Shown here: positions 39,740 through 64,000 of the stretch, piece by piece
How the letters are laid out: each line of letters begins with the position of its first letter
Position numbering within the stretch: position 1 is the first letter of the stretch
Assembly (NCBI RefSeq): GCF_009695545.1
Contig: NZ_VUNS01000003.1
Coordinates: 62,001 to 126,000, forward strand
From: Victivallis lenta
GTDB taxonomy: Bacteria; Verrucomicrobiota; Lentisphaeria; Victivallales; Victivallaceae
Length of the DNA stretch: 64,000 bases
Direction of reading: 5' to 3'
Notes under the pieces: model-generated
Told to the model about the DNA's origin: nothing
The model's input: the letters and a program-made list of their open reading frames with translations, nothing else
Database searches by the model: none
Made by a program: the position numbers and the translations under genes

Positions 39740-39802
39740 GCTCGTTGTCTACCTTAGTTTGTTGATCGATCTATCTCTTTAAGAATACTTATGCTGAAAA
39801 CA

Positions 39803-41044: not shown

Positions 41045-41062
41045 AATGAACCTCCGCCTTCA

Positions 41063-42370: not shown

Positions 42371-42385
42371 TGTGCGTTCTCCGTG

Positions 42386-44239: not shown

Positions 44240-44325
44240 TTTAATGATTGTTCCACATGTTCTGCACCGGATGGCATCCCCGGCGCCATTGTTATAGAAT
44301 GGTAATCAATTCACAAATCACTGTC

Positions 44326-45018: not shown

Positions 45019-45048
45019 ACGAAAATTTCCCCGCTGGATTTCCACTCT

Positions 45049-45426: not shown

Positions 45427-45508
45427 ATCAAATCGCGCCTTATCTTTTCGTTATGTTTCGGGATACGCGAGCACAAATACCCTATGCTCTGTATCCCGGC
45501 CCCGGTTA

Positions 45509-45537
45509 ATATTAGCCCCCATCGAATAAAAAGTCAA
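45509..45537 (-). promoter_or_regulatory. Promoter of secG and probably the pilus-like locus
   Basis: TTGACT (45532-45537) and TAATAT (45509-45514) are 17 bp apart on the minus strand, 83 nt before secG. No other promoter was recognised between here and the terminator at 34575, so one long transcript is possible. Confidence 0.6.
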
Positions 45538-45596
45538 CCCCTTTTTACCGCCAGCCGGCTAATAATCTCAATTATTTTCCAAAATTGATGCCGTTT

Positions 45597-46367: not shown

Positions 46368-46423
46368 ACAAATACCTCTCTATTTTCTTCATTCATGCGT
46401 TGTGACATAAAGTGCCAAGGGGA

Positions 46424-46452
46424 AAAATAACACACCGCAACACATTTTGCAA
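46424..46452 (-). promoter_or_regulatory. Promoter of tpiA
   Basis: TTGCAA (46447-46452), 17-bp spacer and TATTTT (46424-46429) on the minus strand, 56 nt before the start codon. Confidence 0.55.
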
Positions 46453-46511
46453 CCCCTAAGATGTTGATCGTCCGGGATTCATTCCGTTTTTTGCTTGGGA
46501 ATTCCGAACAG

Positions 46512-46916
46512 TCATTTCTTTTTCACGGCGACCGCCGTCGCATGCTGGCTCCTCCGCCAGAGAATCCAGAGCGAAAAAAAGCCGGTGGACGACTCCGTGA
46601 TCTCCACGTCCTCCACTTCGGCCTTCAGCTGCTTCGCCCAGCCTTTCAGCATCATATCCGTATACTTGTTTTCGATCCGGTTCCGGCAGGTGACATAGTC
46701 GCGCCGGTTCGGCCGGTTCGGATTGCCGCTCCACAGCGGAATATAGTAGAACAGGAAAATCCCCCAGTTGCTCCCTTCGAGATTTGCAACCACCCGCTCC
46801 CCGCTCGAACTGGTCTGCCCCTCCGCGGGCGGCAGCATGGTGACCACCGAGGTGTTGCACCCCGCCGTCATCAGGATCGCCGCGGCCAGCGCGACCGTCA
46901 TCACTGCTTTTCCCAT
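46512..46916 (-). CDS. Small lipoprotein, possibly a pilotin
   Basis: The 134-residue product starts with a type II signal peptide whose lipobox reads LMTAGC, so Cys20 would be lipid-modified. The mature part (GSNWGIFLFYYIPLWSGNPNRP; RIENKYTDMMLKGWAKQLKAEVEDVEITES) shows one amphipathic helix near the middle and a basic end, with no known enzymatic motif. It is divergent from two secretin-like genes, with 225 bp between starts. Secretin pilotins are small lipoproteins of this size, so that role is a reasonable but untested guess. Function otherwise unknown. Confidence 0.7.
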   Translation of the reverse strand: MGKAVMTVALAAAILMTAGCNTSVVTMLPPAEGQTSSSGERVVANLEGSNWGIFLFYYIPLWSGNPNRPNRRDYVTCRNRIENKYTDMMLKGWAKQLKAEVEDVEITESSTGFFSLWILWRRSQHATAVAVKKK

Positions 46917-46947
46917 TCCATAGGTTCCTTCTTTTTTGATTTTACTA

Positions 46948-46975
46948 ATTTAAACGGTCAAAACCGATTTTGCAA
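46948..46975 (-). promoter_or_regulatory. Promoter of the lipoprotein gene
   Basis: TTGCAA (46970-46975) and TTAAAT (46948-46953) 16 bp apart on the minus strand; a second TTGACC lies inside the spacer. Confidence 0.4.
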
Positions 46976-47141
46976 GTAATCTGCCGGAATCCTTGCCGCG
47001 AATCCCCCGGCTCCGCGTTTTGACCGGATACAGCCGTAACTGAAAAACCATCAACGGCTCATCGGATCCTAACATCCCGGCAATACATTACGAAACAGAA
47101 AACAATTTCCGAACCTTATCCCTTAACGAAAGGACAGCAGC

Positions 47142-48644
47142 ATGAATCAGCCGATTGCGGCCCTTGCCGTTTCCGCGGGGCTTCTCCTGCCCGGCGCTCT
47201 CGCCGCCGCGCCCCCCGAAACCGGGGAGACCCGGACCATCCGCCTGATCCAGGACGATGCCCAGGAATACATGATTTCCAAGGTTTACGAACTCAAATAC
47301 CTGAAAGCGAACGACGTCGCCCCCTTCGTCCTCGGCGTGGTCAAACGCAACAACACGCAGTCGACCGTGAACCGCATCAACTACAGGGCCGGCGACGAGC
47401 AACTGCTGACCGTAAGCTGTCCGGTCCGCATGATGCCGTATGTCGACGACCTCATCGCCAAACTCGACCGCCCGGCGCGGGTGGCCGGCGGCGGCGAAGA
47501 CCCGATCCGCGGAACCGGCATCACCCGGAACCTCTATCCGGCGCGGTTCCGTTCGGCCCGGGTCATGGTCGACGTCATGACCGGAACCGGCATCAACGGC
47601 GGCGCCGACTCCTTCGTCGGCTACGACGCGGAAACCAACCTCATCTACTGGAAGGACGACGCCAACAAAAGCAATGACCTCCTCAAATATCTGGCCTGGC
47701 TCGACCGGCCGGTTCCGATGGTCAACCTCGCCTTCACGGTCTATGAGGTGCGGGAGAGCACGCTGCGCGATCTCGGCATCGACTACCTGGCCTGGCGCAA
47801 CGGCCCCGGCCTCAACCTGCTTCAGGCCGGTTTCAATGCCATGAGCCTCGATTCGGCCGGTTCGGCCGCCCTTTCGGCGGCTTCGGGCGGTTTCGGCGCG
47901 TTCTTCATCGCGCCGCAGTTCGACGCGAGCTTCATCCGGGTGCTCCAGCAGAACGGAAAGGCCACGATCGCCAACACGGCCAGCCTCACGGTGCCGAACA
48001 GTGAAAGCGCGAGTTACTCGGTCGGCTTTTCCCCGCAGTCTCAGGCGATTTTCAAGCGAAACAACGACCAGCTTCAGGTCGGCATCTCCGGTGTCGGCAT
48101 GAAGGGCGGAATCGAACAGCCGGAGTCGGGCCCGGGTGCGGAGAACCCGCTGCTGAACAGCCCGGAACCTCCGCCGCCGCTCGCGCTTACCGTCACGGCG
48201 CCGCGCATCAACTTCCGCAGTTCGGCCGACGCCAAAACCGGACTGATTCCCGATCAGGCGGCGAATTACAACCATTCGGTTCAGGCCCTGGTCACCTTCC
48301 GCTACCTGATCCGGACCGCCGATGTGGTCGAACGCAACAGTTACGGCGCGGAGCTGGCGGAGGTCAGCACGGTCACCGGCGACTGCAATCTGCTCTCCGG
48401 CGGGGAGAAGCTGCTCTCGGCCTGGAGCAAAGAGAGCGATGTCGAACAACGGATCGGCATTCCTTTCCTCTCCGACATTCCGGTGCTCGGCAGCCTGTTC
48501 AGCACCACGACCGTCAACCGCGAGAAGAGCTACTTCTTCATCACGGCGAAAACCATGCTCGTCCACCCGGAGAGCGCGCCGGCGGAGTACAGCGGCCAGC
48601 TCAAAGCCTTCAGCGAACTCATTCCGCAGACAGCAGAACGTTAA
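47142..48644 (+). CDS. Secretin-like exported protein I
   Basis: The 500-residue protein has a signal peptide (ALAVSAGLLLPGALAAA). VYELKYLKANDVAPFVLGVVKRN resembles a NolW/N1 secretin domain, and the end IPFLSDIPVLGSLFSTTTVNREKSYFFITAKTML matches the secretin C-terminal motif. Between them are a second N-type repeat (RNLYPARFRSARVMVDVM) and an insert of Ala/Ser-rich sequence. It lacks the TPR region of the Amuc_1098-type secretins, so it may be a single-domain variant. The next gene is related. The divergent lipoprotein could assist its membrane insertion. Confidence 0.7.
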   Translation: MNQPIAALAVSAGLLLPGALAAAPPETGETRTIRLIQDDAQEYMISKVYELKYLKANDVAPFVLGVVKRNNTQSTVNRINYRAGDEQLLTVSCPVRMMPYVDDLIAKLDRPARVAGGGEDPIRGTGITRNLYPARFRSARVMVDVMTGTGINGGADSFVGYDAETNLIYWKDDANKSNDLLKYLAWLDRPVPMVNLAFTVYEVRESTLRDLGIDYLAWRNGPGLNLLQAGFNAMSLDSAGSAALSAASGGFGAFFIAPQFDASFIRVLQQNGKATIANTASLTVPNSESASYSVGFSPQSQAIFKRNNDQLQVGISGVGMKGGIEQPESGPGAENPLLNSPEPPPPLALTVTAPRINFRSSADAKTGLIPDQAANYNHSVQALVTFRYLIRTADVVERNSYGAELAEVSTVTGDCNLLSGGEKLLSAWSKESDVEQRIGIPFLSDIPVLGSLFSTTTVNREKSYFFITAKTMLVHPESAPAEYSGQLKAFSELIPQTAER

Positions 48645-48664
48645 TTACGATGGAGAATACGCCA

Positions 48665-50359
48665 ATGATCCGAACCTGTCCCCTGTTCCTGCTTGCCGCT
48701 CTCGCCGCCCTGCCGCTCGCCGCGGCGCCGGGAGACTCCGCCTTGACCCCGTTTTACACGGACAGCACCTTCAACGGAAAGCTGGAAACCACTGCACGGC
48801 GCCTCCCTTCGCCCGGAACCCCGCGCGACAGCAACAACAACGACACGGCCGGCTACATGGATACGCAGGTGCAGACGCAGCTGCGGCTCGACCTCGGCGA
48901 CAAAGTCGACAGCGTTCACTTCATCCGCGACAACAACGATCCGCTCGTCGTGACCAAAACCTACGTGCTCAAGCATGCCGAACCGTATGCGCTGCGCACC
49001 TATCTGCGCGAGATGGTGCAGACCAGGCGGGTCTCCGGCAGCAATACCGCGGTCGAATGCCTGAAATTCGAGGACGGCGTCGGGCTTCTGTTCGTCTCCG
49101 CCGAGGAATACCGTTTCAAGGACAGCGAAAACGGCATGGGCATCGACGCGATCGTCGAGCGGCTCGACAGGCCGGGGCTGCTGAACAGTTCCGGCCAGCC
49201 GAAGTACGTCTATTTTCCGGCCAACGTTCCGGCCGCCGTCCTTGAAAACATGGTGAAGAAGGTCGGCATGAACGTTTCCGACGACCCGGCCGAGCTGATC
49301 GGCGGCAAAGACAAAGTCAAGCTCGATCCGGAACTGAACTGTCTCTTTTTCAACACTGCGAGCTACTCGCGCAAAAACATCGAGGAGATGCTGCGCCGCT
49401 ATGACGTTCCGCTCCCGGAAATCCGCATCAGATTCAGTGTCTATGAACTTTACGCCGAAAACGATGAAAAGCTCGGGTTCGACTTCCAGGCCTGGAAGAA
49501 CAACGACGGCATGGACTTCTTCAGCACCGGCGGCCGCTACCGCGACAACTGGGCCGCGGCCTATGGCGGAACCATGGCGGAGGCGCAGGGATCGGAACGC
49601 ACGAGCTTCTACAATTTCAACCCGAAGTGGAACTCGCGCTACCTCGACTTTCTCGCCAGCCGGGGAAAAGCGAAGATCGCGCACTCCGGCGAGGTGACGG
49701 TGCGCCAGAACACGACGAGCACGCTCGAGCGGCTGACCCAGCTCTTCTATATGGATACGACGGTTCCCGCGCCGGAAACCGAAAAACAGTCCGACGACTG
49801 GTATGCGAAGCTGTTCGACTCCATCCTCGCCGCCTTCAGCAAGAAGGAGCAGAAAACCGAAATCGCAACCGGCAGGGACAATCAGGAGAGCGTGACCCGC
49901 GATCCGAACGCCTTCGGATTCAGCCTGACGGTGAAGGCGCTCTCCATTGCGCCGGAGGCGGCGATGCTGAAACTTACGCTCAAAAATTCCTCGCTGATCG
50001 GTTACCAGTCGACCGGAGCGCCGCGCATCCAGGAGGGGAATACGGTCACAACCGACGTCATGGTCTCGACCGCCCGGAACCGGTTCGTGATCGGCGGCCT
50101 GGAGAAGCGCGAGATCGTCCGCGGTTCGACGGGGGTTCCGTTTCTGAAGGACATCCCCGGAATCGGCTACCTGTTCCAGGTCGAATCGGAGTCGACCCGC
50201 AAATCCCGGATGGTGCTGGTCGCCGAATGCGAATACACCGAGCCGGAGAGCGTCACGCCGGAAGAAACGCAGCAGCAGTTGAACGACATCCGGAACGACG
50301 TCGCCGGCGCCGGCGGCCGGAACCAGTACTTCTACGGCCAGTACGGACTCGACCGGTAA
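48665..50359 (+). CDS. Secretin-like exported protein II
   Basis: The 564-residue protein has a signal peptide (FLLAALAALPLAAAPG). TYVLKHAEPYALRTYLREMVQTRR and VYFPANVPAAVLENMVKKVG are N-type repeats, and RIRFSVYELYAENDEKLGFDFQAW plus VPFLKDIPGIGYLFQVESESTRKSRMVLVAE form a secretin-like core. It shares its layout with protein I directly upstream (20 nt apart) and is probably co-transcribed with it. ATG 48665 is favoured because GGAGA precedes it by 8 nt; an ATG at 48650 is in frame. With the two pilus secretins, four such proteins are encoded within 16 kb. Confidence 0.7.
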   Translation: MIRTCPLFLLAALAALPLAAAPGDSALTPFYTDSTFNGKLETTARRLPSPGTPRDSNNNDTAGYMDTQVQTQLRLDLGDKVDSVHFIRDNNDPLVVTKTYVLKHAEPYALRTYLREMVQTRRVSGSNTAVECLKFEDGVGLLFVSAEEYRFKDSENGMGIDAIVERLDRPGLLNSSGQPKYVYFPANVPAAVLENMVKKVGMNVSDDPAELIGGKDKVKLDPELNCLFFNTASYSRKNIEEMLRRYDVPLPEIRIRFSVYELYAENDEKLGFDFQAWKNNDGMDFFSTGGRYRDNWAAAYGGTMAEAQGSERTSFYNFNPKWNSRYLDFLASRGKAKIAHSGEVTVRQNTTSTLERLTQLFYMDTTVPAPETEKQSDDWYAKLFDSILAAFSKKEQKTEIATGRDNQESVTRDPNAFGFSLTVKALSIAPEAAMLKLTLKNSSLIGYQSTGAPRIQEGNTVTTDVMVSTARNRFVIGGLEKREIVRGSTGVPFLKDIPGIGYLFQVESESTRKSRMVLVAECEYTEPESVTPEETQQQLNDIRNDVAGAGGRNQYFYGQYGLDR

Positions 50360-50478
50360 AAGAAAAACGCGAGACACCGCACCTGCGTCAAGACGGCCAA
50401 GCCGTCAACGGTCATAGAAATTTGTCTGCCGCAGATTTTTGTGCGGGAACTCCGCCCGGGCCGGTTTGAGGCGCTGCC

Positions 50479-51615
50479 TCAACCTCCGCACGCGCTCCCC
50501 TGCGGCAACAGCGTAAACCCGAGCGTCTTCAGCACGGCAGCCGTCTCCGGCCTCCCGCCCCTCACCCGGAACGCCGGATATTCACGGCGAATCCGGTAAT
50601 GTCCGCGCTGCGGCTCAAAACCCGCCGGGTCACTCCGCAGCTTCCCGTCGTCCAGGCCGATATCGTATGTGTGCAGCAGTGCCTGCGCAACCTGCTCCCG
50701 CACGGAAGCGCCCATTTCAAGCTCGATTTCCGGAGTTTCCGGCTCCGGCAGCCGTTCCGGCCGCCATTCAGCAAGCCCGGGAATGCCGAAGAATGCCGCG
50801 ACCGCCTGCACCGCCATCGCCGTCCCGTTCGCCTTCCCATCGGTCGAATACCCGGCGATATGAGGCGTCCCGATCCGCACCAGGTCCAGCAGCTCACGGT
50901 CGATTCCGGGTTCGTTTTCCCAGACATCAAGCACGGCGGCGGAGATTCGGCCGCTCTTCAGCGCCGCCTTCAAGGCGGCCGTGTCGACCACTTCCCCGCG
51001 CCCGCTGTTGAACAGCTGCGCCCCCGACCGCATCAGTTCCGGAAACCCCGCATCGCAGAGATGAAAGGTCGGGTGAGCGCCGTCGCGGGTCAGCGGCGTG
51101 TGAATCGTCACGAAATCGGCTTCCGCCAGCAGCTCCGGCAGCTCCGTGAATCCCGTGCTCCCCTCCCGCTCAGCCCGCGGGGGATCGTTCCGCAGCACCC
51201 GCATGCCGAGCGCTTCCCCAAGCGCCGCGACTTTCGAGCCGACATTGCCGACTCCGATCACGCCGAGCGTTTTTCCGCATAATTCCACTCCGGACGAAAC
51301 CAGGGCGCTGCCGATATACTGAGCGACGCTCGCGGCATTGCAGCCCGGCGCATTGCGCCAGGCGATTCCGGCCCGGCGCAGATACGCCGTGTCGATATGG
51401 TCGTAACCGATCGTGGCGGTCGCAATAAAACGGACGCGCGACCCGGCCAGCAGCGCTTCGCCGCAGCGGGTCCGGGTCCGGGTAATCAACGCATCCGCAT
51501 TCTTCACATCCGCCGGGGCGATCGCACCGCCCGGCAGGTAGGTCACTTCCGCAAACGGTTCAAGCGCTCCGCGCAGAAACGGGATTTTATCATCGGCAAC
51601 AATTCTGAGTTTCAT
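50479..51615 (-). CDS. pdxB: Erythronate-4-phosphate dehydrogenase
   Basis: The 378-residue D-isomer 2-hydroxyacid dehydrogenase oxidises 4-phosphoerythronate in the DXP-independent route to pyridoxal phosphate. LRIVADDKIPFLRGAL is a typical PdxB start, GVIGVGNVGSKVA binds NAD, and WENEPGIDRELLDLV and GTPHIAGYSTDGKANGTAM (catalytic His) match PdxB rather than SerA. GGAGG precedes the ATG at 51615 closely. A generic 2-hydroxyacid dehydrogenase is less likely given the His-Ile-Ala-Gly-Tyr-Ser motif. The gene follows the secretin-like gene in opposite orientation with 119 bp between. Confidence 0.9.
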   Translation of the reverse strand: MKLRIVADDKIPFLRGALEPFAEVTYLPGGAIAPADVKNADALITRTRTRCGEALLAGSRVRFIATATIGYDHIDTAYLRRAGIAWRNAPGCNAASVAQYIGSALVSSGVELCGKTLGVIGVGNVGSKVAALGEALGMRVLRNDPPRAEREGSTGFTELPELLAEADFVTIHTPLTRDGAHPTFHLCDAGFPELMRSGAQLFNSGRGEVVDTAALKAALKSGRISAAVLDVWENEPGIDRELLDLVRIGTPHIAGYSTDGKANGTAMAVQAVAAFFGIPGLAEWRPERLPEPETPEIELEMGASVREQVAQALLHTYDIGLDDGKLRSDPAGFEPQRGHYRIRREYPAFRVRGGRPETAAVLKTLGFTLLPQGSACGG

Positions 51616-51736
51616 CATCCTCCGTCCGGCAGTCGGGTTGGTTCGACCGGCCGCATTGTTTACCATAATACCGCCTTCCGGCAAAATCAACCCCCGGCCG
51701 ACGGCCAAAGCAGAGGAATCCGGGGAGTAAGGCGCT

Positions 51737-52486
51737 TCAGAAGTTATTCCGGTGAAATCCGCCCCAGCGGTATTCCGGAGTCAGTTCCGTATGCTCCGTC
51801 GTGCTGACGTGCCCATCCATGAAGCAGACGTTCGCCAGGGTGCAGCCGCCGTGGCGGAAGGCCACGATATCGGTATTGCCGTCTCCCGTAATCTCTTCTC
51901 CGCTCTGAATATAGCGCTGACGCTTGCTTTCGTTGGAGCTGTATACGTGCCAGTCCGTCGAATCGGTGAAGGCGACCCGCTCGGCGGGACGGACGATCCG
52001 GCTCAGTTTATATGCGACGATCCGGTCGCCCAGCCCGCCGTTCACTCCGGCCCAGGAGATGACGATGTCTCCGCTCGCCACCGCGTAGCTGCGGTAAATC
52101 GGCGAAAGTCCGTCAATTTTATGGCTCCCCAGCGCGGAAGTCGCTTCGGGGCAGATCAGACCCGCGTCGGTGCTGTTTTCCACATAGTTGCCGCTGGCGG
52201 CAATGTTTCGCAGCGTTCCGCCCAGGAACTGCCGGAACGCCAGATTGTTGACCCAGATCCGGTCCGTGGACGCGTCGGAATGATAGCTGACCGGAACCCA
52301 GTATCCGCCGAAGCTGTCGGCGTAAAACACACCCGCCATACCGTACTGCTTCTGAATGCCGGCGCATTTGATCCGCTTCGCCCGGCCGCGCGCCTGATTC
52401 AGGGCCGGAAGCAGCATGGCGGCCAGAATGGCGATGATTGCAATTACCACCAGCAATTCGATCAGTGTAAATTTTCGTATTCTCAT
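51737..52486 (-). CDS. Pseudopilin-like protein (prepilin N-terminal domain, Lentisphaerota type)
   Basis: The 249-residue protein begins with a class III prepilin leader: MRIRK precedes [25 protein letters not shown], so cleavage before Phe6 would leave Glu at mature position 5. The following 50 residues ([33 protein letters not shown]) and the C-terminal [11 protein letters not shown] are characteristic of the large pseudopilin families of PVC bacteria. No partner pseudopilins are near. The start overlaps the upstream PqqD-like gene by 4 nt (ATGA) with GGAGGA upstream, so it is translated from the RiPP cluster mRNA. That coupling is the odd feature. Confidence 0.85.
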
Positions 52487-52764
52487 ATTCCTCCATTGTT
52501 TTCGGGTACGTTCTGTAAAAATCCTTTGTTCAACAGCATATTGATCAACTCGTCGATATCGTTCCGGGCGGATTCCGGGACTCCGGCGAACCGCTGCCGC
52601 AGCATCTCGAAGATACCTTCCCGCCCGACCCCGGCCGAAGCGCCTTCCCAGATGGCTTTCGCCACGGGATTCAACCCGTAGGATTCGCCGGTTTCGGCGT
52701 TGAACAAAATTGCGCCGATCTCCTTTTCATCGCGGTAAATTGCCGAAAAACCGGCCCGTGTCAT
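52483..52764 (-). CDS. PqqD-like RiPP recognition element protein
   Basis: The 93-residue protein has the PqqD fold pattern ([25 protein letters not shown]), where the Asn-Ala-x-x-Gly strand and the Ala-x-x-x-Trp helix are the leader-binding surface. It would present the precursor leader to the maturation enzymes. The ATG at 52764 overlaps the upstream HprK-like gene by 4 nt (ATGA). The context agrees: radical SAM/SPASM, HprK-like and a Cys-containing peptide are all in one operon. A match to the ScmD family of the SynChlorMet cassette is suspected, from memory. Confidence 0.75.
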
Positions 52765-53621
52765 GACAGCACCTCCAATTCCTTCCAGAATTCCCCGGTC
52801 AGAGAACACTCCAATTCGCCGACCGGCACTTTGCGGACCGCCCCGAACGCGAAGTCCACCGCGGCTTCATTCAGGGAACGCCAGAAACTGTTTCTTCTCC
52901 CGGCCCGCCACATATGGTTCAAATCGTAAAACTGCCGGTAGAGGATCTGCACCTGCTCGGCGGGCGGCAGGCCGTTCACCCGCTCCCGGTCCGAATGGCA
53001 CAGCCGGTAAATCCCCGACAGCCGGACCGTCTCGCCGATGCGGACCGGATGCAGCTCCCCGGAAACGAACTGGCTCCAGGTCGGCAGCGGCTGCGCAAAA
53101 TACGCTCCGCCGACGTTCGAAATCAGCACTGCATCGTCGCAAAGCGCCCGCCACGGCGGCGGAATCCGCCGGGCGCAGGTGCTTTTCCCCGCTCCGGAAG
53201 GGCCGCAGACCACAATGCCGCTGCCGTCCCTGGCCAGCAGCGCACCGTGCGCCACAACCGCCTCGCGCTTCAGCAGCTGCGGCAGAAAACCGTACCAGAC
53301 GATGCGCGGCAACAGCGGCAGCAGCTCGTCGGAACCGGTGCGGTGCAGCAGAAACTCAACCACGCCGTCCGGCCTCCGCCGCACCGAAGCTTCCGGACTC
53401 AGGTGGATCAGCTCCTCCCGCCGCCATCCGGCCGGAAAGTCCGGAGTCCGCGGAGCGCATCCGACCGACACCTGCGCCGCGACCGGCAGCATACCGGGGA
53501 GCATTTCGGGAATAACCACTTTTTCAATCAGCTCCAGACAGCAGCAGGCGGCCTCCCCGCTGAAGCGCCAGACTGCTTTCGTTCCGCCGGCCAGCCGTAC
53601 TTCGAGAATCCTCACTTCCAT
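52761..53621 (-). CDS. HPr-kinase-like P-loop protein of a RiPP cluster
   Basis: The 286-residue protein has one clear P-loop, GIVVCGPSGAGKSTCARRI, and the downstream LCDDAVLISNV strand with the Asp-Asp that in HprK coordinates Mg. Order and motif match the HprK-type kinases that sit in RiPP clusters, where they are thought to phosphorylate the peptide, and the ScmC family of the SynChlorMet cassette. The N-terminal 110 residues are unassigned. It overlaps the radical SAM gene by 10 nt, and the downstream PqqD-like gene by 4 nt. Confidence 0.75.
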   Translation of the reverse strand: MEVRILEVRLAGGTKAVWRFSGEAACCCLELIEKVVIPEMLPGMLPVAAQVSVGCAPRTPDFPAGWRREELIHLSPEASVRRRPDGVVEFLLHRTGSDELLPLLPRIVWYGFLPQLLKREAVVAHGALLARDGSGIVVCGPSGAGKSTCARRIPPPWRALCDDAVLISNVGGAYFAQPLPTWSQFVSGELHPVRIGETVRLSGIYRLCHSDRERVNGLPPAEQVQILYRQFYDLNHMWRAGRRNSFWRSLNEAAVDFAFGAVRKVPVGELECSLTGEFWKELEVLS

Positions 53622-54691
53622 TCAAGCCTTTCAAAATCAAAATCGGGAGCTGCCTCCTGATATTTTTTCAAACAGTAGGGCGTGGCTCGCCCGCAATGGT
53701 CGAAGCAGGCGCCCGCCGGACGGCAATACCGGTTGTATCCGCACTCCGCGCAGACCGGGAAAGTCTCCGCCGGGTCGCAGTCGTGTTCACGCATTTCAAG
53801 CAGAACGGGCGAATTGCGCCAGACGTCGATGATCCGGTCTTTTCCAGCCCACCCCAATACCATATGGGAAATATGGTTGCACGGCGTAATGGCGCCGTCC
53901 GCCCGGATCGAAATCCGCTCCAGCTGCGCCGGACAACGCAGGAGGGAAGCTCCGGTCAGCTCCCGCCGGTCGAGAATGTCCTTCCAACGATTCGCGACAT
54001 TCGTGAAGGCAGCCTTCTTCACGAGGAACCGCTCCGGAAAGGCCGCGTGAACCCGCTTGACCTCGACCATCGACTGCAGCTGTTCCCGCATGGAGAGCAG
54101 ATGCCCGCTGTCGTCGTCACTCTCCTTGCTGCTGAAGTGCTGCGCCCAGTTGGCGGAGACCGCAGGGATGCCGGTCTCTTCGAGCAGGCAGCGGACGGTC
54201 TCCATCAGGGTTCCGAGATTGTGCTTCCCGATGGTGATCCGCACCTGTGCCCGAAGCCCGTGCTCCCGGAGGATGCCGATCGCCCGGACGGCCCGGGCGA
54301 ACGAACCTCTGCCGCGAATCGCGTCATGCACCTCCTCCACCCCGTCCACCGAAATCTGGACGCTGTTGCAGCGGCCGGACTCCTTCAACATGACGGCATG
54401 TCTGTCCTCGAAAAAGTAGCCGTTGCTGAGCAGCGAAAACCGCATATTGTTGCGGCACACTCCCTCGATCAACTGCGGCAGATCTTCCCGGAGCAGCACC
54501 TCGCCGCCGGAAAGAATCACCTTGAGCATCTTCATCTGCCCGAATTCGGCAAAGACATCGAGCCACTCGCCGGTGGTCAACTCCTCCGGAGTCTCACAGG
54601 CGCTGTTCCGAAAATAGCAGTAACCGCAATGCAGATTGCATCTCGCAGTCAACGCCGCCTCGGCATAATATGGAGCGGAAAGAGGCTGCAT
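53612..54691 (-). CDS. Radical SAM/SPASM peptide-modifying enzyme
   Basis: The 359-residue enzyme has the SAM cluster motif CNLHCGYC near residue 18 and a C-terminal SPASM region with Cys-rich segments (LLRCPAQ; ITPCNH; CDPAETFPVCAECGYNRYCRPAGACFDHC). SPASM radical enzymes usually install thioether or other crosslinks in RiPP precursors, which fits the Cys-containing peptide encoded 11 nt upstream. It may also be a homologue of the ScmE or ScmF family. A GGAAGG near the precursor stop is the likely ribosome site. Confidence 0.88.
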   Translation of the reverse strand: MQPLSAPYYAEAALTARCNLHCGYCYFRNSACETPEELTTGEWLDVFAEFGQMKMLKVILSGGEVLLREDLPQLIEGVCRNNMRFSLLSNGYFFEDRHAVMLKESGRCNSVQISVDGVEEVHDAIRGRGSFARAVRAIGILREHGLRAQVRITIGKHNLGTLMETVRCLLEETGIPAVSANWAQHFSSKESDDDSGHLLSMREQLQSMVEVKRVHAAFPERFLVKKAAFTNVANRWKDILDRRELTGASLLRCPAQLERISIRADGAITPCNHISHMVLGWAGKDRIIDVWRNSPVLLEMREHDCDPAETFPVCAECGYNRYCRPAGACFDHCGRATPYCLKKYQEAAPDFDFERLEWK

Positions 54692-54702
54692 ATCAATAAT
54701 TA

Positions 54703-54867
54703 TTATCCTTCCGGTGGAGTATCATCCGTTGCGGCTCCACATGGTTCAACAGGGTTGCCATCGACTCCTCCAATACAACTGTCCCCTTTGATAATCTGCG
54801 CCATCCAGTGTTCAAAGTCGATCAGTTCCGGTTTTTCGTAAACTTGCTTTCCATCCGCTTCCTGCAT
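54703..54867 (-). CDS. RiPP precursor peptide (54 residues, two Cys)
   Basis: A 54-residue frame from ATG 54867 to TAA 54703 lies directly before the radical SAM gene. The leader portion VYEKPELIDFEHWMAQIIKG carries a KPEL-type motif followed by an acidic/aromatic stretch, as in precursors recognised by PqqD-like elements. The core SCIGGVDGNPVEPCG contains two Cys (31 and 43) and many small residues, suitable for radical crosslinking; the end is TPPEG. No other ATG in this frame precedes it, because a TGA lies 3 codons upstream. A weak GGGGAG is 12 nt upstream. The product is unknown; the resemblance to the ScmA family is from memory and unverified. Confidence 0.75.
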   Translation of the reverse strand: MQEADGKQVYEKPELIDFEHWMAQIIKGDSCIGGVDGNPVEPCGAATDDTPPEG

Positions 54868-54973
54868 TTCCGTTCATCGCTCCCCTGTTTGTTCTTCACC
54901 GAAAATACGCTTGATTCAGTTTTCGCATCCCTGCGCATTATCTTTCGATGCAAAATATTCACCGTTGATGTTC

Positions 54974-54987
54974 ATATTGTACAATAT
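54974..54987. promoter_or_regulatory. Palindromic operator over the RiPP promoter -10
   Basis: ATATTGT-ACAATAT is a perfect 14-bp palindrome that covers the -10 hexamer and probable start of the RiPP operon promoter, a position typical for repressor binding. Confidence 0.45.
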
Positions 54988-55008
54988 CATGATTGAACTT
55001 TCCGGCAA
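54981..55008 (-). promoter_or_regulatory. Promoter of the RiPP operon
   Basis: TTGCCG (55003-55008), 16-bp spacer and TATTGT (54981-54986) on the minus strand, giving a leader of about 107 nt before the precursor. The same TATTGT -10 is used by the kinase operon promoter at 24439. Confidence 0.4.
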
Positions 55009-55065
55009 CGGCTGACAGCATGACGGTTGCTTTCATTGAAACACCTGCTTTTTGAATTGATTTGC

Positions 55066-55147
55066 AAAAGTCAGAATATCATCAGATATCCATTCCATAT
55101 TATTATAACACTTTTTCATTCTTTTTACAGATGATATCCTGACTTTT
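55066..55147. repeat. 18-bp inverted repeat flanking a TATAAT
   Basis: Arms AAAAGTCAGAATATCATC (55066-55083) and its near-exact complement (55130-55147) match at 17 of 18 bases. The 46-bp loop contains TATAAT on the minus strand (55102-55107). It may be the terminator of the upstream giant gene, a phase-variable promoter switch, or a binding site. Confidence 0.7.
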
Positions 55148-55179
55148 TTACTGATGATTACCGAAAAAGCATACTATTG

Positions 55180-58100
55180 TCATACTTTGCTGACGGAGAG
55201 CGTATTGTTCTCGGCGAGGCCGAATTTCCACTGCCGGTTCGCATCCACCCAGGCGTTGAGCCCCAGGTCCCACTCCCCGGCGACCCCGTTGAAGTAAACG
55301 GTGTTTCCGCTGTTGTTCCATCCGCCGATGACCGAGGCGCTGCCGCCCGCGATCACCGTCGCGGCATTGAAGCCGGCCGTATCGAAATCGAGGTTGAAGG
55401 TATCACCGGAGAAACCGCCGTTTCCGGCATCCCACGTCAACGCCGTTTCGCCTTCCGCCAGTTTGAAGTTCCACGTGTTCACCCCGACCATGTAACTGCC
55501 CTGACCGGTGCTCCAATGCACCCGGCTGCCGGAAATCGTCACCACATCAAAGTAGGCGAAGTTGGCTGTAATGGTCCCGGTGAAATCGGTCAGGTTCAGG
55601 AACCGGGTTCCGCCGATGCCGCCGCCCTGTCCGGTTGGCGCACCGCCACCAATAAATGAGCCGGCAGCGAAAGTCAGATTATCGCCCAACCCTTTGATTG
55701 TAATGCAGGTATCACCGGTAACAGTGGCGAGACCATGGCCGCCGCCGAAGATAGATTTGCAGCGGACTGCGCCGGCGGAACAATCCACCGTGATATTGGT
55801 ATTACCGTAAATAACTGCATGAGCGCCTGTCGCAGAATCAGCATTACCGGCACCGAAAACGGACCCGACCGTTCCGCCATCAATGATGATTTCCGTATCT
55901 CCGTAGATAAGCGCTCCGGCTCCGGAGGAAGCGGAATAGCCTCCGCCATAGATAAAACCCGTGCTTCCTCCATTGACAATGATTCGCGTTCCGCCGTAAA
56001 CAACATTGCTTCCGCTGCCAACGCTGTGCCCGCCACCCAAAACCGTACCGACAGAACTTTCACGATCAATCGTAATCGTTACACCTTTTCCCGTCATACC
56101 GGAAGTCCCAACAACAGCCGTACCGTTTGACGTACTGCGGCCGCCACCGAAAATTCCAACGCTGCTGCGATTAAAACCGTCCAACTGAATTTCAGTTCCT
56201 CCGGTTAACCTGGAATATCCGTTCGCGCCGGCATAACCGCCGCCATAAATAAAGTTTGTATCGGCACTGCCGGTTACTGTAATTAAACCCTTTCCATAAT
56301 TGATCGCAATACCGCCAAGAGCATATCCCCCGCCGTAAACCAGACCGGTTCTGGCGGTGGAGGCAATGGTGATGACGGAATTTCCATATACCGCGGATTC
56401 GCCCCCGTTGACGCCATATCCGCCGCCGGTGATGGTGCCGAGCCGGCTCGCTCCCGAAACCGTCAGCGCGACACCGGCGAGATTTTCCGCCGTTCCGATC
56501 ATGGAACGCGCTCCGCTGCCGGTCGCCCAACCGCCGAGCATCGTGAAACCGGTGTTGACCGTTCCGGCCAGGATCAATTCAGAACCGCCTTCAACAACAA
56601 CGGCAGCTCCGGTCCCGGATGCATATCCGCCGGCGAAAAGGATATCAGACATTCTGACACTGCCGATCGTGAGGGTCGCCTTGCCGGTAACCGTGGTGGT
56701 TCCCGCCGCCGTGCGGTAACCGCCGACGTAGATCCGGCCCGACGAAGCTCCCGCCCCGGCGCCGTTGTTCTGCAGATTCAGCACCACGTCGCCGTAAACC
56801 GTCGCGTTTCCGGCGCTGGAGGCGTCGTTGCAGGTGCCGAGCACGATGTTATATGCCTGGTTGCAGACCGCGGAATTGATGTTGACCGTGATCGCGTCCC
56901 CGGTTTTCGTCGCCGTGTTGACATCCCCGGTGCCGCCGGCGTAGATGAATGCACCCGCCGCATCGCAGCCGGCCGCGATCGTGATGACGATTCGGCCGAA
57001 CACCGCACCGCTGCAGCCGCCTCCGTAGATATCGCCCCTGAAGTTCGCGTTGACCTCGACAGCGGCGTTGCCGGCCACATTGCCGTTTTTTCCGCCGCCG
57101 TAGATGTCGCCGTCGACCGACGTATTGAGCACCAGCCGGGTGTTGCCCGTCACCAGGCCGCCGCTGCCGCCGGCGAATGCTTCTCCGGTGATGTTTCCGC
57201 CGGCGATCAGGAGCACGGCGTCGCCGTTGACCTGCCCGCCCCTGCCGCCGCCGTAGACGTTCGTCACGGTTCCGCCGGAGATCCGGACTGTCGTGCCGCC
57301 GTCGACCGCCGCATTCCGGCCGCCGCCGTAAACATCGCCGTTGACCACAGCATTTTTGTTGTTCAGATCGACCACGGCGCCGTTCGACACGACTGCGCCG
57401 TTGTCACCGCCGCCGTAGATGTGTCCCGAAATCCGGACCGTCCCATCCGAGGTGAAATGAAACAGCGTTCCGCTGCCGACCGTTCCTCCGGCCCCGGTGC
57501 CGCCGCCGAAGATATTGCCGAGGTAATCGCCGTGTCCGAGCGTAATTTCCGTCCTGCCGGCCACTGCTCCGCCGTTGCCGCCGCCGTAAACGTCACCCGT
57601 GACTCCGCCCCAGTTGCCGGAGTCGCCGGCCAGAATCCACACTTCCGCGTTGCCGGTCACATCGCCGTTGCGCCCGCCGCCGTAGACGCTGCCGGCAAGC
57701 TGCGTCCAGTTGGCCGAAACGACCGTGTCCCCCCGTACGTCCGCCGCATTGCCGCCGCCGTAAATATCCGCGGTCGGCGTACCGCCTGCAATGGTCACCT
57801 TCGCACCGCCCTCGACCACCGCACCCGCCGCGCCGCCGCCGAATACGGCGCTCGCGCGCAGGTTGCCGCCGACCTTCACCTCGGCGCCGTTCATGACGGA
57901 GGCCGCCGAACCGGAACCGCCGCCGTGAATGCCGCCGGCGGTTCCGCCTGCGGCATTCACCATCGTGCCGCCGCTCACGACCGAATTCCGGCCGCCGCCG
58001 TAAACATCGCCGGCAATCACCGCGTTGCCGTTGCTCAACCCGACCGCGGCGCTCCCGGTCACGGCCGCTCCGCCGTTGCCGCCGCCGTAAATATCGCCGG

Positions 58101-60951
58101 TCACCTTCGGCGTCCCCCCCGACAACTGAACCAGCGTCCCGCCGCCGACCGTCCCGCCGGCGCCGTTGCCGCCACCGTAGATATTGCCGAGATAATCACC
58201 GTGTCCGAGCGTAACCGCCGTATCGCCGGTTACGCCGCCGTTGTTGCCGCCGCCGTAGATTTCGCCTTCGAAGCCGCCCCAGTTGCCGGAAACGCCCGCA
58301 GTGATTTCGACTGACGCATTCCCGGTAACTGTTCCGTTGTTGCCGCCGCCGTAAAACGCGCCGGACATGATCGCCCAATAAGCCGACACGAACGTATTGC
58401 CCTGCACATCCGCCGCGTTGCCGCCGCCGTAAAAGCTGCCGGAGAGCGTTCCGCTCTGCAGCAGAATCTGCGTACCGCCGTTCACAGCCGCACCGTCCCG
58501 CCCGCCGCCGTAGACATTCCCCCGGATATCGGCGGCCGAAACGGCAATCTGCGTGCCGCCGTTCACCGTCGCGCCGTTGCGCCCGCCGCCGTAAATATCG
58601 CCGGACACCGCGGTTCCGGCGACGGAAAGTTCCGTGCCGCTGCCGACCAGCGCTCCTGCCCCGTTGCCGCCGCCGTAGACATCCGCCTTTAATTGCGCAA
58701 TATTCCCGAGGGAGACAACGGCTTTGCCGTCGACCTCGCCATTGCGCCCGCCGCCGTGGAATGAAACCGTATCCGGCATCACGATGGCTCCGCCGAGGTC
58801 GAGCAGGGTGCTGCCCGTCACCTTCGCATGATTGCCGCCGCCGTAGATGTCGCCGCCGATGTTCCCGGCCCTGACGCGGACAACCGTGCCGCCGTTCACA
58901 GCCGCACCGTCCCGCCCGCCGCCGTAAACGGTTCCGGCCACGCTGGCGAGGGAAGCAGAAACGAGAGTTCCGCCGTTCACAGCCGCACCGTCGGCGCCTC
59001 CGCCGTAGACATCGCCGTTCATTGTTCCGCCATTCAGAAAGACGTTCGTCCCTTTGCCGACATTCGCGGCGGAGCCGTTGCCGCCGCCATAGACGGTTCC
59101 GGTCACGGCGCCTTTCAGCGAAAGGGCCGTTCCCCCGTGTACAGCACCGTTATAACCGCCGCCGTACACGGCAGTCCCGGAGAGATGGGTTCCGACTTCC
59201 TGATCGAACCGGGTGCCGCCTTTCACCGTCGCGGCATCACCGCCCAGATAAAGCTCACCGATGATATTCGAATTCCGGTACGTGTAGACATACGTGTCGC
59301 CGCCGACTGTCGCGCCATTGCGCCCGCCGCCGAAAACTTTGCCGACGATCGTGGTGCTGCCGTCGGCCGAAGCGCCTATGATAAGGCTCGTGCCGCCTTT
59401 GACCAGGTCGGCCGTTCCCTCGCCGCCGCCGTAAACGATGGTTTCGAAGGTTCCGGTATTGTAGAGCCCGATCTTCGCATTGCCGTCGACCGTGGCATTG
59501 CTGCCGCCGCCGTAGATGCTGCCGACACCGGCGTAGGAACCGGATACTCCGGAAACGATGACATAGGTGTCTCCTCCGATTATCGCGCCGTTGCGCCCGC
59601 CGCCGTAGACACTGCCGACGGCTTTGGCATAAGAGAACCGGACCAGCGTGTTCTTTTCAACAACCGCACCGTCGTCACCGCCGCCGAAAACATTCCCGTA
59701 GGTTCCGGTCGAAATGTTGATCGATGTTCCGGCCATGTAACTGTCGGCTTCGCTGACGTCATAGGCGGCTTCGTTCCAGACCGTGCTGCCGGCGCCCCGG
59801 CCGCCGCCGAACAGGCAGCCGGAGAGCGTTACCGCCTGGCCGCTTACCCAATAGCAGACCGCCTGCGTAACGCCGACACGGGCGTTGCCGGAGGAGCCGT
59901 CGCCGCCGAGATAAACCGTACCGTGCGTGCCGCCGGTTACATGCAGATTGACGGTCCCGATATCGGAAGCACCGCTGCCGCCGCCGAACGCAGTCGCCAC
60001 TTCCCCGCCCGCCAGGATGAAACCGGCCTCATCGCCGATGCCCTGACCGCCGTACAGCGTCTTGATTTTCGCATAATTCGTAACCGTCAGCGACGGATGG
60101 ACTGAGCCGTTGACCTCCACATAAACGGTGTTCAGGATCGAACTGCCGATGGTGATCTGCCTGGTCTGGCTGGAGAAACGGATTCCCGCGACTGCGGATG
60201 CATCGACGTCGCCGCCGCCGGCGTTTCCGCCGATCCGGATCTGCTGGATATCCGGAAATACGTAAACCGTGCCGCCGACGGGAGCCGCCAGAACCGCCTT
60301 CTGGATCGTGAGGGCATTGTCGCCGTAACCGCTCGCGGCGGAAAACACCAACCGCGTTTCGCCGACGGGCCGGTCAACGGTGATCATCCACGCCGCCCCC
60401 GGAGAAACGACAAATTCGTAAGGCGCGGCATAATCGTGGATATCACCGGCCGGATTCGCATGGCTTTCACCGAGCAGGTGACCGGCCTCGTGGGCGATCA
60501 CCGAGATGACCTGCTCGATGCCGCCGGTGATATTGTCGGTCAGGACATAGGCGTTGTCGTTTGCGATCCGATTGCCATTGCCAATCGTCTCCGCGATACC
60601 GGGAAAGGTCCCGTACCCATCGAATGCATCGGTCGAACCGACGTAGATGATCGACCTGTTACCCATGTCTTCCGGGAGGGAAATTGCGAAAACCACATTG
60701 TCATCCGCGCAGAGTTCGTTCAGTGAAGCGATGATATATGCCTGTTCTTCTTCGGAGAAACCGGCGCTGTCCATGCGGATATCGCTTAGCGAGAGAAATT
60801 CATTGCGGAATTCCAGCCCGCTGCCGCCATCGAAATCGACGAGAAAATACCGGCGCCGTTCCGCAGAATCAGAAATAAAAATATCTTCATTCCTGTTTTC
60901 AATGATTCCGATCTGGTCGCCGAAAAGATGTTTTTTTGTGATGTTCAGCAT
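55180..60951 (-). CDS. Giant Gly-rich repeat protein with metzincin motif
   Basis: The 1923-residue protein has no cleavable signal peptide. HEAGHLLGESH at residues 154-164 is a full HExxHxxGxxH zinc site of metzincin peptidases; no clear Met-turn is seen after it. From about residue 290 to 1790 the protein is built from dozens of units of roughly 26-30 residues, with the core GGG-R/N-N-G-A-x-V-x-G and VYGGG or IYGGG at each end. This regular pattern suggests a beta-solenoid. The tail (WDLGLNAWVDANRQWKFGLAENN) is beta-rich and could carry an export signal. AGGTGG precedes the ATG. The long open frames on the opposite strand are by-products of the repeat composition. Confidence 0.8.
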   Translation of the reverse strand: MLNITKKHLFGDQIGIIENRNEDIFISDSAERRRYFLVDFDGGSGLEFRNEFLSLSDIRMDSAGFSEEEQAYIIASLNELCADDNVVFAISLPEDMGNRSIIYVGSTDAFDGYGTFPGIAETIGNGNRIANDNAYVLTDNITGGIEQVISVIAHEAGHLLGESHANPAGDIHDYAAPYEFVVSPGAAWMITVDRPVGETRLVFSAASGYGDNALTIQKAVLAAPVGGTVYVFPDIQQIRIGGNAGGGDVDASAVAGIRFSSQTRQITIGSSILNTVYVEVNGSVHPSLTVTNYAKIKTLYGGQGIGDEAGFILAGGEVATAFGGGSGASDIGTVNLHVTGGTHGTVYLGGDGSSGNARVGVTQAVCYWVSGQAVTLSGCLFGGGRGAGSTVWNEAAYDVSEADSYMAGTSINISTGTYGNVFGGGDDGAVVEKNTLVRFSYAKAVGSVYGGGRNGAIIGGDTYVIVSGVSGSYAGVGSIYGGGSNATVDGNAKIGLYNTGTFETIVYGGGEGTADLVKGGTSLIIGASADGSTTIVGKVFGGGRNGATVGGDTYVYTYRNSNIIGELYLGGDAATVKGGTRFDQEVGTHLSGTAVYGGGYNGAVHGGTALSLKGAVTGTVYGGGNGSAANVGKGTNVFLNGGTMNGDVYGGGADGAAVNGGTLVSASLASVAGTVYGGGRDGAAVNGGTVVRVRAGNIGGDIYGGGNHAKVTGSTLLDLGGAIVMPDTVSFHGGGRNGEVDGKAVVSLGNIAQLKADVYGGGNGAGALVGSGTELSVAGTAVSGDIYGGGRNGATVNGGTQIAVSAADIRGNVYGGGRDGAAVNGGTQILLQSGTLSGSFYGGGNAADVQGNTFVSAYWAIMSGAFYGGGNNGTVTGNASVEITAGVSGNWGGFEGEIYGGGNNGGVTGDTAVTLGHGDYLGNIYGGGNGAGGTVGGGTLVQLSGGTPKVTGDIYGGGNGGAAVTGSAAVGLSNGNAVIAGDVYGGGRNSVVSGGTMVNAAGGTAGGIHGGGSGSAASVMNGAEVKVGGNLRASAVFGGGAAGAVVEGGAKVTIAGGTPTADIYGGGNAADVRGDTVVSANWTQLAGSVYGGGRNGDVTGNAEVWILAGDSGNWGGVTGDVYGGGNGGAVAGRTEITLGHGDYLGNIFGGGTGAGGTVGSGTLFHFTSDGTVRISGHIYGGGDNGAVVSNGAVVDLNNKNAVVNGDVYGGGRNAAVDGGTTVRISGGTVTNVYGGGRGGQVNGDAVLLIAGGNITGEAFAGGSGGLVTGNTRLVLNTSVDGDIYGGGKNGNVAGNAAVEVNANFRGDIYGGGCSGAVFGRIVITIAAGCDAAGAFIYAGGTGDVNTATKTGDAITVNINSAVCNQAYNIVLGTCNDASSAGNATVYGDVVLNLQNNGAGAGASSGRIYVGGYRTAAGTTTVTGKATLTIGSVRMSDILFAGGYASGTGAAVVVEGGSELILAGTVNTGFTMLGGWATGSGARSMIGTAENLAGVALTVSGASRLGTITGGGYGVNGGESAVYGNSVITIASTARTGLVYGGGYALGGIAINYGKGLITVTGSADTNFIYGGGYAGANGYSRLTGGTEIQLDGFNRSSVGIFGGGRSTSNGTAVVGTSGMTGKGVTITIDRESSVGTVLGGGHSVGSGSNVVYGGTRIIVNGGSTGFIYGGGYSASSGAGALIYGDTEIIIDGGTVGSVFGAGNADSATGAHAVIYGNTNITVDCSAGAVRCKSIFGGGHGLATVTGDTCITIKGLGDNLTFAAGSFIGGGAPTGQGGGIGGTRFLNLTDFTGTITANFAYFDVVTISGSRVHWSTGQGSYMVGVNTWNFKLAEGETALTWDAGNGGFSGDTFNLDFDTAGFNAATVIAGGSASVIGGWNNSGNTVYFNGVAGEWDLGLNAWVDANRQWKFGLAENNTLSVSKV

Positions 60952-61603
60952 ATTCCACCTGCTTATGTAATTGAGACTCCGCCAAAAGAAATTCGATGAT
61001 CGGATGATAGAAACAATATATACATATTAAATATAATATCAAGAGTGAATCAATGATAATATTGATATTTTTTACTGTTTTAAAACAAAAAAATATGCAG
61101 GTAATACGCTCAAACAAGCCTGATTATTTAAATATAAAAATAAGGAATTCACAATTGTTAATTTTTATTATTTACAGGATTAACACGTATAAACAACTGA
61201 GTTGTCAGGTGATATCAAAATCCATACCAGCCGGCCGCCATGAAAAATTCAATCGTTTGCACGTGAAATGAACAATATATGTTTCTAAGAAAAAAATCGA
61301 TCAAAAAATAATGTATGAAATAAATCGCCATTCCGATAATCATAAACCATATTGCCACAAAATCATATCTTGAAATAAAAACGAAGAAATATGCCGCCGG
61401 CCGCTTCGGATGCAGCGCAGACGCGAATATTCGGAAGTTCAGGGGTCGCCTGAAAGACCGGAACAGGGCGAACAATGTGAATGCCGCCCGGCATCGGGAA
61501 GCTCAACAGGAGGACGAAAGGAGGACCGCACTGCCGCAGAGGGAGAGAGCCGGCCAAAAAACGGCCATGAGGAAAATCCGGACGGCTGCCGCCCGGCATT
61601 GCA
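60952..61603. other. AT-rich intergenic region upstream of the giant repeat gene
   Basis: This 652-bp gap is strongly AT-rich in its first 450 bases compared with the surrounding GC-rich genes. It holds the promoter at 61015-61042 and a symmetric TGTTTTAAAACA (61076-61087) within longer A/T tracts. Short frames (for example 60899-61117 and 61215-61475 on the minus strand) have no ribosome site or recognisable family. The composition suggests insertion from elsewhere or a regulatory hub. Confidence 0.6.
61015..61042 (-). promoter_or_regulatory. Promoter of the giant repeat gene
   Basis: TTGATA (61037-61042) and TATATT (61015-61020) are 16 bp apart on the minus strand, about 64 nt before the start codon, in an AT-rich block. 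Confidence 0.55.
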
Positions 61604-62878
61604 TCAATTGTTGCTGAGAATGACCAGCGCTTCGGGATCGCCGGAAGCGGCGGCGGCTTCGATCAGTCGGCTTCCCTCGGCTTCGTCCTTCTCCACGCCG
61701 GTTCCGGTCAGGTAGCAGATACCGAGCTCGCGGACGGCGTCGAGCTGTCCGACCGCCGTCGCCGTCTTGAACCAGAACACCGCACCGGCGGCATCCGGCT
61801 CCATGCCGATTCCCTTCAGGTGGCAGCGGCCGAACGCATACTGGCCGTCGGCATCCCCGGCCCGCGCCGCAATGCCGTAGAGCTCCGCGGCCCGCACCGG
61901 CTCCGGGTCGCTTCCGATGCCGAGCTCGGCGCAGCGGCCGAGCTTCACGGCCGCCGACAGATAACCGGCGTCGAACGCCTTGCGGTAAAGCGCCAGCGCT
62001 TCGGAAATCGACTGCGCCACCTGATCGCCGTTCAGGTAGTAATCGCCCAGCCGCACCTGCGCCCGCGCGCTGCCGGCCTCCGCCGCCTCCCGGACAAGCC
62101 GGAAGGCGCGGACCGGATCGGGAGCGACTCCGAGCCCGTACTCGTAAGCCGCGGCCAGCGGAACCTTCGCATCGGCGCTGCCGAGCTTCACGGCACGCTC
62201 ATAACATGCCACCGCCTCCTTTGCGTCGCCGGCTCCTCCGACGCCATCCTCATAACAGGCAGCCAGCATCAGCAGCGACTCGACGTCGCCTGAATCCGCC
62301 GCCCGGGTCAGCGACTGCCGCGCCTCCGTGCCGCAGCTCTGCCGCAACGCGGCATCCCGCAAAATCATCCGCCCGAGCTCCCGGTCCGCCGGAAGATAGC
62401 CGGTTCCGGCCAGGTCGCGCAGAAGCCGCAACGCGCCGGCGGGGTCGGCGGGCGTTCCCGGCAGCGTCTCCTTCTCCTCCGCTTCGTCGGGAATTCCGGA
62501 AATCATCAGCAGCGCCTTCCGGAGCCGCGCCTCCGGCAGCCCGCCTTTCGCGGCCTCATCAAAACAGCGGCCCGCCCGCACCAGACTCGGGTGCTCGACC
62601 CCCCACCCCTTTTCATAACATACGCCGAGATTGTAGGCGCCTTCGGCACTGCCCAGTTCCGCCGCCCTGCGATACCAGTAGACCGCCAGCACCGGATTGC
62701 GCGGACGGGCGTCCGTGCCGAAGAAGAACTCCGACGCGAGCTTCAGCTGCGCCGCCGTATCGCCCGACAACGCCGCATTGCGGAGCGGGTCGTCCTTCTC
62801 CTGTTCCGCCGCAGCCGGAAAAACGACAAGAAAAAACAGCGGAACGAGCGCATACAGCCAGTGTGACCGCATCTTCAT
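61604..62878 (-). CDS. Exported Sel1-repeat (SLR) protein
   Basis: The 424-residue protein has a signal peptide (WLYALVPLFFLVVFPAAA). The rest consists of Sel1-like repeats of about 36 residues with A-x-x-W/Y-Y-R-x-A-A-E-x-G-x-x-x-A (AVYWYRRAAELGSAEGAYNLG; ALYRKAFDAGYLSAAVKLG; AVFWFKTATAVGQLDAVRELG). Such repeats form alpha-solenoid scaffolds for protein contacts, in the periplasm or outer membrane. No catalytic domain is present. The gene follows lpxD by 42 nt and may be co-transcribed with it. Confidence 0.88.
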   Translation of the reverse strand: MKMRSHWLYALVPLFFLVVFPAAAEQEKDDPLRNAALSGDTAAQLKLASEFFFGTDARPRNPVLAVYWYRRAAELGSAEGAYNLGVCYEKGWGVEHPSLVRAGRCFDEAAKGGLPEARLRKALLMISGIPDEAEEKETLPGTPADPAGALRLLRDLAGTGYLPADRELGRMILRDAALRQSCGTEARQSLTRAADSGDVESLLMLAACYEDGVGGAGDAKEAVACYERAVKLGSADAKVPLAAAYEYGLGVAPDPVRAFRLVREAAEAGSARAQVRLGDYYLNGDQVAQSISEALALYRKAFDAGYLSAAVKLGRCAELGIGSDPEPVRAAELYGIAARAGDADGQYAFGRCHLKGIGMEPDAAGAVFWFKTATAVGQLDAVRELGICYLTGTGVEKDEAEGSRLIEAAAASGDPEALVILSNN

Positions 62879-62920
62879 CGTTCCGCCGTTTCTCCGTCGT
62901 TTTTCCGTTATTTCTCCGGA

Positions 62921-63970: not shown

Positions 63971-64000
63971 GATGTTCTCCCTTTCCAAAACTCTCTCTGG

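Follow-up and report, generated by a model that had tools for sequence, protein, structure and literature searches.

The window, a 64,000-nucleotide stretch of a Victivallis lenta contig (NZ_VUNS01000003.1), carries a short open reading frame within a row of minus-strand genes:

61013–61084, minus strand: cluster of sigma-70-like promoter matches 5' of the giant gene (consensus only)
55180–60951, minus strand: giant Gly-rich repeat protein of 1,923 aa, directly upstream of the peptide; C-terminal family A3
54703–54867, minus strand: precursor peptide gene of 54 aa, based on the open reading frame, a paralogue, the family profile and selection
54823–54840, minus strand: leader motif Y-E-K-P-E-L (Y..P.L), in which Y10 and P13 are nearly invariant across the peptide family
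54706–54786, minus strand: presumed core from G28, GDSCIGGVDGNPVEPCGAATDDTPPEG, with two Cys, based on family comparison
53612–54691, minus strand: ScmE-like radical SAM/SPASM peptide maturase, 267.8 bits (cut-off 400), with CxxxCxxC at residues 18–25
52761–53621, minus strand: ScmC-like HprK-type kinase, 104.1 bits (cut-off 125), with a P-loop GPSGAGKS and a DD dyad
52483–52809, minus strand: ScmD-like PqqD-family peptide-binding protein (RRE), 49.5 bits (cut-off 100)
51737–52486, minus strand: protein with a prepilin-type N-terminus, whose gene shares 4 nt with the PqqD gene

The short frame starts with ATG at 54867, stops with TAA at 54703–54705 and encodes MQEADGKQVYEKPELIDFEHWMAQIIKGDSCIGGVDGNPVEPCGAATDDTPPEG, in which KPEL lies in the leader (N-terminal half) and both Cys residues lie past residue 27, in the C-terminal half. 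The radical SAM gene starts with ATG at 54691, leaving 11 nt between the two frames, and the radical SAM, kinase and PqqD genes overlap or nearly overlap, with the PqqD gene probably starting at the inner ATG at 52764. The prepilin-type gene beside it is probably incidental, since none was seen beside the other cassettes. Type IV pilus/type II secretion-like genes (PilM/N/O-like, secretin-like) were recognised by eye near the cassette, at 37136–50359. No terminator-like site was found on the minus strand between the giant and peptide genes, and the operon very probably starts further upstream, with the giant gene at 55180–60951.

An earlier note, made from the sequence alone, had proposed a 54-residue precursor with a KPEL leader and two Cys residues, 11 nt in front of the radical SAM gene, and all of these features were confirmed. 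A paralogue occurs in the same genome (contig C1, locus L050, 8566–8739; MFAKMREAEAKLVYEKPEIIDFEHWKAFAVKGNSCIGGPDDDPGPDPCISGSDGGPE) and retains YEKPE[LI]IDFEHW, KG[DN]SCIGG and the second Cys. Across 51 codons the two genes gave a pS of 0.91 (saturated) and a pN of 0.25, hence a pN/pS of 0.28, which indicates strong purifying selection (Fisher p = 1.6e-11). Other pairs of the peptide family gave pN/pS values of 0.30 and 0.04, and a third gave 0.53; the G109/G112 pair was left out because its sequences were too alike. Conservation in relatives and selection, which the earlier note had named as the test of its proposal, were thus both found. The frame can be regarded as a true gene, because the paralogue keeps the leader and both Cys residues under purifying selection. 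The rival view of a chance open reading frame, for which nothing speaks except its shortness, is ruled out by the paralogues and selection and is further contradicted by the family profile; the probability of this view is negligible.

The peptide itself had no match in the family libraries scanned. The downstream genes, described earlier as radical SAM, HprK-like and PqqD genes, had ScmE, ScmC and ScmD as their best NCBIfam matches. As the peptide gene is followed by an ScmE-like radical SAM/SPASM enzyme, an ScmC-like HprK-type kinase and an ScmD-like PqqD protein, its reading as a RiPP-type precursor is sound. The nearest solved structures to the radical SAM protein were the sactisynthase SkfB (1e-19) and PqqE, and its closest relative was a 48% paralogue; no whole-cassette orthologue was found in another species.

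The 50 members of the peptide family share the architecture Y..P.[LIVM], followed by 7–14 residues, a Gly and a variable core, and thus combine the short length, conserved leader and variable core that generally characterise RiPP precursors. The cores are rich in Gly, Asp, Pro, Glu and Ser and contain nearly no Lys or Arg; from the conserved Gly, the leader/core boundary of the window peptide would lie at G28. The leader motif YxxPxL is that of lasso precursors (PMC10368454), which are recognised by PqqD-like B1 proteins (PMC5067487) and which HPr kinase homologues phosphorylate on the Ser at their C-terminus (PMC8498205). Core Cys residues occurred in 12/12 peptides encoded beside a radical SAM gene vs. 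0/9 beside a kinase gene only (Fisher 3.4e-6, with an effective sample smaller than these counts because a few of the peptides are orthologues). This correlation suggests that the peptide is probably Cys-crosslinked, as the earlier note had supposed, and homology of the kinase points to probable phosphorylation. The invariant G-x-S/T was rejected as a general kinase site because not all kinase-only peptides have it and radical-SAM-only peptides do.

What the earlier note overlooked is that the constant neighbour of the peptide is the giant repeat protein encoded upstream, the radical SAM, kinase and PqqD genes being optional. Searching the same genome with the C-terminal 439 aa of the window giant as query revealed six giants (C3, the window; C1, C15, C4, C33 and C6). 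A separate search with the peptide profile found six places, each directly behind one of these giants, and all six peptides (6/6) were of the Y-x-x-P-x-[LI]...G type. The gap between giant and peptide was 8–28 nt in five pairs and 312 nt in the window. The C3 and C4 loci encode radical SAM, kinase and PqqD proteins, C15 encodes a radical SAM protein and a kinase with no adjacent PqqD, and C33 encodes a kinase, a PqqD and a signal-peptidase-like protein next to a Cys-free peptide; C1 and C6 consist of giant and peptide only. A fusion or frameshift extension of the giant was unsupported as an explanation of the peptides, which have their own starts and are separated by gaps.

The pair recurs in other Lentisphaeria, for example in G109 and G112 (a different family of the class), in G034, G007, G166, G010 and G130, and in G012, where one locus contains two such pairs, another contig one and L223 a further one. 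For a survey of the class, a profile was built from 11 giant C-termini, which detected giants in 29/198 genomes, and 40 new giant places were taken for the peptide test, in which the peptide profile was run against the 420 nt behind each stop codon (E ≤ 1, search size 1,000). A peptide was found behind 24/40 giants; since eight of these positives were already in the profile, the independent count is 16/32. The control genes gave 4/269 positives, namely two giant fragments and two radical-SAM-linked family members, leaving 0/265 for unrelated genes; a looser peptide pattern had a background of about 5%. Across 388 genomes of the phylum the peptide matched in 21, of which 20 were Lentisphaeria and the other was borderline. 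The peptide family is hence often paired with very large, exported-looking repeat proteins in Lentisphaeria, and no published account of this pairing was found in the open-access literature.

Several loci showed further arrangements. At L091 (G034, contig C5) one giant is followed by two tandem three-Cys peptides, and related cores of the form G-x-SC(Y/F)(I/V)DC...ICP recur in genus g15. The peptide family has seven members in the small genome G184 and eleven in the small genome G193, which suggests an expanded peptide repertoire. At L240 (G024, contig C44) kinase, PqqD and S26 genes come directly after the giant, and no peptide could be recognised between giant and enzymes.

These distributions bear on whether the peptide could be a free-standing RiPP of the SynChlorMet kind, a bacteriocin or signal, next to a surface protein through a shared niche only. 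Its enzymes are ScmE/C/D-like, the leaders of canonical Scm loci, which lack a giant, are similar, and some members of the class consist of peptide and radical SAM gene only. However, a peptide lies behind 6/6 giants of the genome itself and 24/40 of the class vs. none of the unrelated controls, and orphan giant–peptide pairs occur without any enzymes, so that we regard a free-standing product as improbable.

The window giant contains approximately 44 GGG-containing repeats, spaced mostly 25–32 aa apart, and ends in ..LSVSKV. No N-terminal Sec signal was obvious by eye; the conserved C-terminal tail of the giants often ends in -KLA, and the genome holds genes for a type I secretion system (T1SS). 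A metzincin-like HEAGHLLGESH lies at residues of about 154–164, and zinc-binding motifs of this type were also seen in the C1 and C6 giants and were absent from the other giants checked. The idea that the peptide generally inhibits the metzincin domain as a 'cysteine switch' was discarded, since HExxH is missing from most partner giants and Cys from many cores. Single-sequence AlphaFold models of the giant's ends had low confidence, with a mean pLDDT of 55.5 and 35.9, and a fold search listed beta-helix passengers and tailspikes, none significant.

The pairing could also mean that the peptide acts as a leader in trans, bringing the radical SAM enzyme and the kinase to the giant as the true substrate, in which case orphan giant–peptide pairs could borrow enzymes from other loci. 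Against this, core Cys residues occur exactly where a radical SAM gene is present, which points to the peptide as the substrate, and the giants are Cys-poor in all cassettes. We therefore consider a recruiting role highly improbable.

Gene neighbourhood connects the recognition protein with type I secretion. In the same genome, where two HlyD proteins scored above the cut-off, an ScmD-like PqqD gene (66.6 bits; C21, locus L264) directly precedes genes for HlyB (658 bits, cut-off 725.55) and HlyD (306 bits). At L057 (G141) HlyB and HlyD genes are followed by radical SAM and ScmC-like kinase genes. Several of the 30 ScmD-like PqqD loci adjoin HlyD or HlyB and others an ABC exporter, and ScmD-like PqqD proteins were present in 20/22 peptide-bearing genomes vs. 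26/176 other genomes (p 7e-13). The giant or the peptide may be a T1SS substrate. A separate RiPP-like cluster at L054 (G000, contig C6, 8171–18160) contains repeated Nif11/NHLP-like leader frames and a radical SAM gene, together with HlyD-like and peptidase-type ABC exporter genes.

This link would also fit a peptide that serves the export of the giant as its dedicated chaperone or targeting factor, bound by a T1SS-located PqqD, with modifications that tune binding and no separate active product. Such a factor could be expected where the peptide lies directly behind the giant, often without enzymes (C1, C6), and where an ScmD-like PqqD gene directly precedes HlyB/HlyD genes, and the acidic, Gly-rich cores with nearly no Lys or Arg would suit it. 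Core sequences and lengths nevertheless vary widely, Cys tracks the radical SAM gene, and several peptides have a radical SAM enzyme but no giant. An export factor appears unlikely on this evidence.

The explanation that we consider reasonably probable is that of an RRE-guided peptide, Cys-crosslinked and phosphorylated, which is the partner of a giant type-I-exported protein. The PqqD protein would bind the Y-x-x-P-x-L leader (residues 10–15), upon which the radical SAM/SPASM enzyme would modify the Cys-containing core past G28, most likely by introducing Cys crosslinks of the thioether or another type, while the HprK-like kinase would phosphorylate a Ser/Thr of the core. After removal of the leader, the peptide would leave the cell through a T1SS, together with the giant metzincin/beta-solenoid protein or on its behalf, and may act at the cell surface as the modified partner (ligand, cap or cargo) of the giant.

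Several observations count against this explanation. The 312-nt gap sets the window apart from the other pairs of the genome, no T1SS genes adjoin the window cassette, C15 has no adjacent PqqD gene, and no other species yielded an orthologue of the whole cassette. In the class, 16/40 giants had no recognisable peptide, and some radical-SAM-linked peptides lack an adjacent giant (L025, L026, L027, L029 and L107). The family peptides lack a C-terminal Ser, the window core ending in ..PPEG, so that no kinase target is evident, and the low confidence of the models of the giant's ends adds to these objections.

More tentatively, and with somewhat more doubt than belief, Lentisphaeria may possess two-part surface systems in which each giant type-I-exported repeat protein has its own PqqD-recognised, radical-SAM- and/or kinase-modified peptide, either riding on it or co-released with it. 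If the modified-partner explanation is true, companionship to an exported protein would be a role of RiPPs besides that of free antibiotic or cofactor, and the recurrent pairing would tie PqqD-type recognition to type I secretion. The natural sets of loci (radical SAM only, kinase only, both or neither) would moreover allow ScmE-like and ScmC-like chemistry to be separated; no experimental test of the chemistry of either enzyme was found in the open-access literature.

Among the closest known systems is SynChlorMet, which the earlier note had named for its gene set and whose families (NCBIfam TIGR04248–TIGR04251) comprise the kinase-like ScmC, the PqqD-like ScmD and the radical SAM/SPASM proteins ScmE and ScmF. 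All three window enzymes had their best family matches here, Y..P.L-type leaders occur in two canonical-type loci (YQIPEL at L113, YERPII at L009), and both kinds of locus repeatedly contain genes for an S26 peptidase and an ABC exporter. However, canonical loci lack a giant and encode PqqD, ScmE, ScmF, a signal-peptidase-like protein, a kinase and an ABC transporter, with the order PqqD–radical SAM–radical SAM, whereas the order in the window is peptide–radical SAM–kinase–PqqD and a giant repeat protein forms a pair with the peptide. Among the open reading frames at 48000–64000 there was no second radical SAM gene (ScmF). A maximum-likelihood tree placed 14 canonical ScmE proteins in one clade (100/100) and the 16 Lentisphaeria variants, including that of the window, outside it, and grouped the window and C15 proteins together (100/99). 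Plain membership was rejected because none of the ScmE-, ScmC- and ScmD-like proteins reached its curated cut-off, the cassette has no ScmF, and the tree separates the radical SAM protein from the ScmE clade. What stands of the resemblance is the set of best matches, and the cassette would work like an Scm-type RiPP system, yet is no member of it by these comparisons. At L009 (608–1012, reversed orientation), a canonical-type Scm locus, the precursor carries approximately ten CTAG-like repeats behind its leader. The matched stretch of an ScmE-like gene at L014 (G031, contig C326) is interrupted by a single in-frame TAA, which may reflect a pseudogene or an assembly error.

Phosphorylated lasso peptides of the paeninodin type share the YxxPxL leader, a PqqD-family (split B1) protein and an HprK-type kinase (PMC8498205; PMC5067487), but the window core lacks the terminal Ser used by the lasso kinases, the window has a radical SAM enzyme, and neither a lasso cyclase (C) nor a B2 protease was found among the family-scanned neighbour genes of the peptide. 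Sactipeptide and ranthipeptide systems (SkfB, PapB) likewise combine a radical SAM/SPASM enzyme with a Cys-bearing core, as found in the window, but the window core has no recognised signature of these classes and a kinase is present. Finally, the giants resemble type I secreted repeat adhesins (AIDA-type) in their Gly-rich beta repeats, the lack of an obvious Sec signal and the presence of a T1SS in the genome, and some partner giants match AIDA (PF16168, L028). The window giant differs from these adhesins in having no RTX or adhesin family match and in possessing a metzincin-like motif and, directly behind it, a dedicated gene for a putatively modified peptide.
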